Source: Enterococcus moraviensis ATCC BAA-383 (GTDB lineage: Bacteria > Bacillota > Bacilli > Lactobacillales > Enterococcaceae). From it: DNA of 64,000 nucleotides. Below are positions 60,928-62,573 of the stretch, in pieces; position 1 is the stretch's first letter, and each line of letters begins with the position of its first letter. The notes under the pieces were generated by a model. That model was not told the origin of the DNA and did not search any database. It saw only the letters and a program-made list of their open reading frames with translations. The stretch spans positions 434,001-498,000 of the forward strand of contig NZ_ASWB01000002.1 in the NCBI RefSeq assembly GCF_000407445.1. Reading direction: 5' to 3'. The position numbers and the translations under genes were made by a program.

Positions 60928-61773
60928 ATGTTGAAAAAAATTGATTTTGCTCGTAACTATTTGGAAACACATCATGAACAATTTCGTTGCCCAGTATGTA
61001 ACAAGGCGTTTCAGTTACAGGGATATAGCTTGATATGTAAAGATAATCATCAATTTGATTTATCAAAAAAGGGAACAATCTATTTCCTTTCTCATAGTAT
61101 TCAAACGGAATATAATAAAAAAATGTTACATCATAGAGGAAGATTGATTCAAGCAGGCATGTATCAGCCGCTATTAGAAAAAATCAGTACTACAATGGAC
61201 TTAACAGGAGCTACATTGGATGTTGGCTGTGGGGAAGGAAGCTTCTTACTAGAGTTGTCTAAATTAGGGCTGAGTGGATCAAAAATTGGATTTGATATTT
61301 CAAAAGATGGGATCTATCTAGCAAGCAATCAAGCAGTTGAAGCATTTTGGTGTGTAGCAGATCTGACTAATTTACCCTTTTCAAACCAATCAATGGACAC
61401 TGTTTTGAATATCTTTTCACCTTCTCATTATCAAGAATTTAAACGTGTTCTAAAAAAGGATGGAACAGTGATCAAGGTGATTCCAGAAGCAGATTACTTA
61501 AAAGAGTTACGGGCTGCATTTTATCCTGATGATGAGACGAAACAAACATACTCAAATGAGAAAGTTTTAACAAAATTTTCTAAAGAAATGGACGTTTTGG
61601 TTGATGAACGAGTGACATTTACTTTTGCAATTCCTGAAGAATATCGTTTAGATTTACTAGAAATGTCTCCGCTTGAATGGGGTGTTGCGGAAGAAGTAAA
61701 AGAAGCAATTCAAAAAAATCCATTATCTGAAATAACAATTGACGTTCGCATGTTAAAAGGAAAGATTAGATAG
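60928..61773 (+). CDS. rlmA: 23S rRNA (guanine-N1)-methyltransferase RlmA-type
   Basis: A 281-residue rRNA methyltransferase. The N-terminal zinc finger is FRCPVCNKAF then LICKDNHQFDLSKKG (CxxC...C..H). The SAM-binding motif is LDVGCGEGSFLLEL. Gram-positive members (RlmA-II) methylate G748 of 23S rRNA, near the macrolide and ketolide tunnel. Its stop codon overlaps a perfect cre match at 61768-61782. Confidence 0.9.
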   Translation: MLKKIDFARNYLETHHEQFRCPVCNKAFQLQGYSLICKDNHQFDLSKKGTIYFLSHSIQTEYNKKMLHHRGRLIQAGMYQPLLEKISTTMDLTGATLDVGCGEGSFLLELSKLGLSGSKIGFDISKDGIYLASNQAVEAFWCVADLTNLPFSNQSMDTVLNIFSPSHYQEFKRVLKKDGTVIKVIPEADYLKELRAAFYPDDETKQTYSNEKVLTKFSKEMDVLVDERVTFTFAIPEEYRLDLLEMSPLEWGVAEEVKEAIQKNPLSEITIDVRMLKGKIR

Positions 61774-61782
61774 CGCTTACAT
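61768..61782 (-). promoter_or_regulatory. cre site (CcpA) upstream of the candidate RNA
   Basis: On the minus strand ATGTAAGCGCTATCT matches every position of WTGNAANCGNWNNCW. It lies 23 bases before the -35 at 61805, centred near -65 from the likely start, a position where CcpA activates rather than blocks in some Bacillus genes. Confidence 0.7.
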
Positions 61783-61804
61783 TTGGTTAATTTGCTAAAA
61801 GGTA

Positions 61805-61833
61805 TTGCAAAGCTCTGATAATGGTGTTATATT
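61805..61833 (+). promoter_or_regulatory. Promoter of the candidate RNA
   Basis: TTGCAA (61805-61810), exactly 17 bases, TATATT (61828-61833). Transcription should start near 61840. Confidence 0.75.
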
Positions 61834-61839
61834 ACATAC

Positions 61840-61953
61840 AAGTTGTTTTTTCGTTGGTTTTTATCAGGTTCCTGTTCTGATAAAAGTTAGTGAAAAGAGC
61901 TTCACTAACGTAGCGACTCGCAGTGATTGACACCGAGGCGATACGTTTTTTTT
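61840..61953 (+). ncRNA. Candidate three-hairpin small RNA or leader
   Basis: An about 114-base unit between rlmA and trmL with its own promoter. After a U-rich 5' end come two adjacent 9-bp perfect hairpins: TTTTATCAG/CTGATAAAA (61859-61885, loop GTTCCTGTT) and GTTAGTGAA/TTCACTAAC (61886-61909). A terminator follows: ACGTAgCGaCTCG pairs with CGAGgCGaTACGT around a 12-base loop, then T9 (61908-61953). There is no open frame of note. trmL starts 62 bases later, so it may be a stand-alone RNA or a terminated leader. I do not recognise a known family. Confidence 0.65.
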
Positions 61954-62015
61954 TATGTTGATTTTAAGTACTGAACTATAAATAATGAGTCCTCAATTGA
62001 AAGGAAACTGTAATC

Positions 62016-62522
62016 ATGACAAATCATATTGTATTATTTGAACCTCAAATTCCAGCAAATACAGGAAATATTGCCCGCACTTGTGCAGCAACAAATTCTC
62101 CCTTACATCTCATCGAGCCGTTAGGTTTCTCAACAGATGACAAGCACTTGAAACGTGCAGGTTTAGATTATTGGAACGATGTGAATATTATGTATCATAA
62201 GGATTTAGGCGCTTTTCTAACCTATTTAGAAGATCGGCCATTACATTTGATTACAAAATTTGCGAATCAAACATATAGTGAGATGGATTACACAGACAAT
62301 CAAGATCATTATTTCATGTTTGGAAAAGAGACGACAGGCTTACCAGAAGAATTTATGCGTGAAAATGAAGAAAAATGTTTGCGAATTCCGATGAATGATG
62401 AACATGTTCGTTCATTAAACTTGTCAAATACAGTTGCTTTAGTTGTTTATGAAGCATTACGTCAGCAAAATTTTCCCAATTTAGAATTAAAACATCATTA
62501 TGAGAATGATAAATTAGATTAA
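62016..62522 (+). CDS. trmL: tRNA (cytidine34-2'-O)-methyltransferase
   Basis: A 168-residue SPOUT methyltransferase (TrmL/CspR) that methylates the wobble-base ribose of tRNA-Leu. The knotted SAM-binding end has [43 protein letters not shown]; the N-terminus is [24 protein letters not shown] precedes the ATG. A weak promoter (TTGATT, 17 bases, AATAAT) may lie at 61958-61986. Confidence 0.96.
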
Positions 62523-62531
62523 TAGTAGTCG

Positions 62532-62573
62532 AAAAAACTGTTTCCTCACCAGTGAAGGAAACAGTTTTTTTTT
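62532..62573. terminator. Bidirectional terminator, trmL / VOC
   Basis: AAAAAACTGTTTCCT (62532-62546) pairs with AGGAAACAGTTTTTT (62556-62570), loop of 9 bases. Confidence 0.88.

Follow-up and report, generated by a model that had tools for sequence, protein, structure and literature searches.

What is encoded by the intergenic segment between an RlmA-like methyltransferase gene and trmL in Enterococcus moraviensis, and does it control the gene that follows it? The whole stretch of DNA analysed here, 64,000 nucleotides long, is called the window; the features on which the answer turns are listed below by window position.

60928-61773, plus strand: upstream gene, RlmA-like 23S rRNA (guanine-N1) methyltransferase (best model NF008300, 156.7 bits, below the cut-off of 303).
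61768-61782, minus strand: cre-like sequence ATGTAAGCGCTATCT, exact to WTGNAANCGNWNNCW and overlapping the stop codon of the upstream gene.
61805-61833, plus strand: putative sigma-A type promoter TTGCAA-N17-TATATT, with a predicted transcript start near 61840.
61848-61952, plus strand: 23S-methyl RNA (RF01065), model positions 1-102 of 102, 86.3 bits, E 1e-12.
61849-61895, plus strand: hairpin P1 of 18 bp (arms 61849-61866 and 61878-61895, loop with CCUGUU), from the Rfam structure, with 10 of 18 pairs doubly changed.
61886-61909, plus strand: alternative hairpin P2 (the second hairpin of the original prediction), which cannot coexist with the lower half of P1 and uses the AAC that otherwise pairs at the foot of the terminator.
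61907-61954, plus strand: terminator hairpin and T run, from the Rfam structure and covariation, with a 2-nt bulge (61921-61922) whose first base, C, is invariant.
62016-62522, plus strand: trmL, tRNA position-34 2'-O-methyltransferase (TIGR00185, 207.8 bits against a cut-off of 190.6).

The RlmA-like gene, stop codon included, ends at 61773, and trmL starts 63 nt past the end of the RF01065 model match. Among the best 80 of 364 trmL loci, the proteins of E. ureasiticus and E. caccae are 97% identical to the window's TrmL. Further downstream, between trmL and a convergent YaeR-like gene, an inverted repeat followed by a T run is visible by eye (62532-62573), and is probably a terminator common to both genes; a simple terminator scan of the window had no hit at this place, where the loop is 9 nt.

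When the whole window was compared with Rfam using cmscan, a single match exceeded its gathering score, namely RF01065, at 86.3 against 50 bits. Because this match is full-length, the feature belongs to a named family, and the original prediction was mistaken in knowing of none with such a shape. It is a copy of the already catalogued 23S-methyl RNA of lactic acid bacteria, and is thus both real and known. Phe_leader (RF01859) scored 21.1 bits where its gathering score is 55, and was dismissed as chance. The 23S-methyl motif, reportedly first described by Weinberg in 2007, is defined, as we take it, by its place before a gene for a SpoU-type RNA methyltransferase, and trmL, with TIGR00185 above its cut-off, is such a gene. 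The name of the family implies a 23S rRNA target; judged by sequence models, however, the downstream product that scores above cut-off is TrmL, a tRNA position-34 enzyme. The name misleads, because the enzyme downstream is a tRNA and not a 23S rRNA methyltransferase, and the mismatch counts against the name, not against membership in RF01065.

Several RNAs under the same label have been published. Passages of PMC7724050 identify E. faecalis sRNA_111 and E. faecium sRNA_106 as the 23S-methyl motif, put the identity between the two at about 90%, and report that they were validated by Northern blot; the cultures of that study contained 0.5% glucose. The two RNAs come from other species, and their correspondence to the window's RNA is drawn from the shared Rfam label rather than from a sequence alignment. 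In S. pyogenes M49, sRNASpy490305 bears the label 23S-methyl and is described, in a passage of PMC3542284, as intergenic, plus-strand and 84 nt long, as against the ~113 nt expected for the window's RNA; a passage of PMC6431027 classes the S. pyogenes 23S-methyl among 5'UTR leaders. The relevant passages of PMC6064168 place 23S-methyl in core regions of 27 S. agalactiae genomes, and do not name it among the families of that species with detectable promoter and terminator signals. No mechanism is offered in the published passages found on the family. In outline, the original prediction of a small RNA or an early-ending leader before trmL agrees with the short RNAs published for E. faecalis, E. 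faecium and S. pyogenes. Compared to RF01065, the window's RNA is alike in full-length sequence and structure, in its place before trmL and in its terminator, and no difference was found in the RNA itself; what the window's genus adds is a cre-like site upstream, and members of the window's own sequence family (f1) are able to form the alternative hairpin P2.

The family is widespread within one order. Of 395 genomes sampled from the order, 275 have a match to RF01065 at E 0.001 or better (250 above the cut-off), spread over 51 of 80 genera; all 22 genomes of Enterococcus examined match as well. In a class-wide sample under stricter filters, 25 of 299 genomes matched, all from this same order. 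Our own model, R1, run on the best 80 of 364 trmL loci, gave 72 same-strand matches upstream of trmL, the other two of its 74 matches being antisense in loci already counted; on 22 trmL loci in which no motif had been detected, it gave three matches (34.0, 28.8 and 27.1 bits), all of them at a good distance from trmL. The bulged core of the terminator, searched as a pattern, occurs in at least 112 of 246 genomes, mostly at one place each, against at least 3 genomes in a backwards control.

Second places with a bulged core were seen in four genomes of a single genus, g21 (G010, G025, G049 and G081), and likewise in G211 (5.7 Mb, 5% contamination). In L081 (1501-1578, minus strand) and L221 the second core lies behind a same-strand tRNA cluster (Glu-Thr-Tyr-Gln), as though a tRNA operon had reused a 23S-methyl terminator. 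In L107 (1501-1593, minus strand) of G212 a terminator with a similar GCNGNG...CNCCG core lies right behind a tRNA gene; the likeness in L107 may be due to chance. Among six weak second matches, those in L053, L054, L055 and L106 lacked the full bulged core by eye and were taken as chance.

Two inverted repeats (61859-61885, 61886-61909) and a run of nine T (61946-61954) can be read directly from the sequence, and folding of 61840-61953 gives -31.5 kcal/mol, compared to a shuffle mean of -23.1 (equalled by 2 of 200 shuffles). The original prediction saw two abutting hairpins here; both inverted repeats exist, but they are not the fold of the family, in which P1 and the terminator covary. The evidence comes from alignment A1, consisting of 48 of the 83 distinct motif sequences, chosen by eye. 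When the Rfam structure is laid over it, 94.2% of cells are paired (80.4% in shuffles), 21 of 35 pairs have changes on both sides (16.0 in shuffles), and 203 cells are doubly changed (66.2 in shuffles), with 0 of 500 shuffles as high on these measures; pairing falls to 38-48% when the partners are slid by 1 to 3 columns. Covariation across relatives, which had been put forward as a check on the prediction, supports one long hairpin (P1) plus a bulged terminator hairpin; as in RF01065, there are two covarying hairpins, the second a predicted intrinsic terminator with its T run at 61946-61954. A simple terminator scan of the segment left this plus-strand terminator unflagged, its single hit (61909-61886) being on the minus strand, so that it is the Rfam structure and covariation that carry the terminator call.

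For the 113-nt RNA, ensemble prediction pairs the lower half of hairpin 1 with its 5' arm at 0.70-0.98 per pair; three apical pairs above the bulge are predicted at only about 0.5 in the window's RNA, yet are kept in A1. In motif numbering (to which 61847 is added to obtain the window position), G73, C74 and G76 of the terminator and the opposite C86, C87 and G88 are invariant in 48 of 48 aligned sequences, C74 being the first base of the 2-nt bulge. The string TTCAYTAA is found, anywhere in the motif, in 47 of the 83 distinct sequences, including f9 members in which the sequence of P1 differs. The invariant bulge letters and TTCAYTAA are candidate binding sites.

The predicted promoter TTGCAA-N17-TATATT is present at 61805-61833, and its hexamers are identical in 22 of 22 congeners, unlike the interval between the terminator and trmL, where most positions vary across the same 22. 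A simple promoter scan of the window rated it 9 of 12 and gave 11 such sites against 8.5 expected, so that the promoter call rests on conservation. Many motifs of other families are, by eye, also preceded by similar promoters.

Gene order was compared in 100 loci (107 fetched less 7), an uneven sample that includes the 22 congeners and the 30 best order-wide matches. The first of trmL and queG downstream of the motif is trmL in 85 loci and queG in 11, always on the same strand. Within the locus trmL lies behind queG in 10 of these 11, and it does so also in the eleventh, L068, a locus with a ddl-like gene between the motif and trmL. A queG-like gene stands between the motif and trmL in L061, L063, L065, L066, L069, L070, L071, L073, L079 and L080 (recognized by TIGR00276 for L061 only, and by tblastn match in other loci); in these loci the RNA thus precedes a pair of genes for tRNA position-34 modification. 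One of the 85, L104, has an opposite-strand aquaporin-like gene between the motif and trmL and a gap of 1004 nt (the names aquaporin-like and ddl-like were read from the proteins). The gap from the end of the model to trmL, with gene starts extrapolated from tblastn, is 26 nt or less in 9 of the 85 and 36 nt or less in 18; a gap of 26 nt or less has no room for a separate promoter, so that read-through, or a promoter inside the motif, is forced.

Neither gene lies within the fetched stretch in four of the 100 loci (G002, G042, G212 and G013, with motif scores of 106.2, 106.9, 55.3 and 49.8 bits, respectively). In the first three, genes intervene and trmL is found 2.3-3.3 kb downstream on the same strand; in G013 it lies on the other strand at a distance of about 5 kb. 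As the motif still scores in all four, trmL need not follow it directly for the RNA to exist. In two cases the intervening genes seem to have arrived recently, since the adjacency is intact elsewhere in the genus concerned (L008 and L014 against L009; L020 against L016). rlmA is upstream in 79 loci and was not found in 21, which makes trmL the steadier neighbour. Conversely, trmL does not need the motif, as it is present in 14 of 15 motif-less genomes tested (15 of the 120 without the motif).

On balance we favour, as the probable reading, a leader that has a promoter of its own and in most cases stops at the terminator as an RNA of ~113 nt, and whose read-through gives the trmL mRNA. The conserved promoter would start the RNA near 61840; the RNA would fold into the long hairpin P1, a short linker and the intrinsic terminator; most transcripts should stop there (start, end and share are predicted), and the share that reads through would become trmL mRNA. 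Because the read-through part makes that mRNA, promoter strength and termination would jointly set the output of TrmL. Something may bind the RNA, as the invariant bulge and the conserved linker hint, and TrmL, itself an RNA-binding enzyme, is one candidate; in the window's genus the cre-like site may add an input from CcpA.

The nearest competitor, possible though rather unlikely, is a stand-alone small RNA that acts in trans or binds a protein, and for which the place before trmL is inherited gene order. The RNA indeed appears to have a promoter and a terminator of its own; its counterparts were detected by Northern blot in E. faecalis and E. faecium, according to passages of PMC7724050; TTCAYTAA recurs even in f9 members with a different P1; and the motif is kept in G002, G042 and G212 despite the genes before trmL. 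Inherited gene order sits less easily with the 96 of 100 loci that have trmL or queG behind the motif in the same orientation, with the 9 loci where at most 26 nt separate the RNA from trmL, and with the two cases in which the intervening genes look recent. We think it quite improbable that the segment is an ordinary promoter and terminator, conserved by happenstance, with fixed read-through and no further regulation: the literature passages found on the family name no ligand, which would fit, but a plain terminator would need neither invariant letters round the bulge nor a conserved linker, nor compensatory changes spread across many genera.

The hairpin P2, which uses one strand of P1, raises another alternative for the window's family, a two-state attenuator in which P1 plus the full terminator would exchange with upper P1 plus P2, the latter favouring read-through through loss of the basal AAC pairs. 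Modelling of partial structures is in its favour. A transcript that stops at model position 62, short of the terminator, is predicted to be most stable in the P2 form (-18.1 kcal/mol); for the whole RNA with the named pairs only, that form is predicted at -24.1 against -23.2 kcal/mol for P1 plus terminator; and the terminator alone would weaken from -13.5 to -9.5 kcal/mol on losing its basal pairs, a cost of about 4 kcal/mol. With all pairs allowed, however, the full-length RNA is predicted to prefer P1 plus terminator (-31.5 kcal/mol), leaving P2 at 0.3-0.4% of the ensemble. This, and a covariation far weaker than that of P1, speak against the originally predicted second hairpin as the main fold. 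On A1, P2 cells are 82.1% paired (79.7% in shuffles) and four pairs are doubly changed against 3.2 in shuffles, a level that 183 of 500 shuffles reach; doubly changed cells number 14 against 6.9, with 0 of 500 shuffles as high, and therefore some P2 signal remains. P2 pairs form in 279 of 279 cells of the 31 f1 sequences, but this 100% says little, because the strands do not vary within f1. Over all 83 sequences, P2 cells are paired at 100% in f1, 89% in f8, 87% in f2, 79% in f3, 51% in f6, 57% in f9 and 39% in f4/f5, compared to 100, 95, 87, 95, 76, 82 and 47%, respectively, for lower P1. P2 survives sequence changes in L059, L067, L005 and L084, with 0 of 300 linker shuffles as stable, whereas in the f8 loci L057 and L064 its stability is no better than that of linker shuffles. 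The predicted hairpin is thus found in all f1 sequences and in only part of the other families; we regard it as a second state that some families may adopt, rather than as the fold shared by all, and the two-state attenuator as very unlikely.

As to the leader that we prefer, the cre-like site bears on its possible carbon control. We take WTGNAANCGNWNNCW and WTGNNARCGNWWWCAW to be cre consensus strings, the former loose and the latter stricter. The match described as perfect is exact to the loose string, and one mismatch off the stricter one on either strand. The loose string has three matches in the window against 1.64 expected (20 of 100 shuffles reach 3), and one-mismatch matches to the stricter one number 9 against 9.5 expected, which is chance frequency; with neither string is a match rarer in the window than chance would give. 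The better evidence is its fixed place: upstream of the 100 loci, the loose pattern stands at model position -80 (once -81) in all 22 congeners, exactly in 13 and with one mismatch in 9. Outside the genus, an exact loose match is found in 5 of 78 loci, all at -79 or -80 (L023, L026, L028, L030 and L031), and is absent in the other 73; six further loci have a one-mismatch match at other places between -82 and -127. A conserved cre at a fixed place before the promoter, as in CcpA-controlled promoters, is therefore seen within the genus only, and, with 5 of 78 exact outside it, control by CcpA would be at most a local addition. Some of this conservation could reflect coding constraint, because the site shares sequence with the end of the upstream gene. 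Its distance from the predicted transcript start, about 65 bp upstream, is compatible with activation by CcpA. The candidate cre thus speaks for a CcpA site specific to the clade but does not prove control; the term CcpA has no occurrence in the main texts of PMC7724050 and PMC6431027. A combined scheme, in which Enterococcus 23S-methyl would be a bistable P1/P2 attenuator that tunes genes for tRNA wobble modification (trmL here, queG-trmL in other members of the order) in response to TrmL or the tRNA on which it acts, through feedback, plus a carbon input through CcpA in three genus groups (g1, g7 and part of g6), is a long shot.

Beyond the catalogued RNA, we consider the link to trmL and queG, the possible competition between P1 and P2, and the cre-like site worth a test at the bench. 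The unit that 23S-methyl leads appears to be trmL, or queG together with trmL, both genes for modification of tRNA position 34. This link makes feedback by TrmL or its tRNA concretely testable, and the cre-like site offers one clade-specific handle on carbon control.
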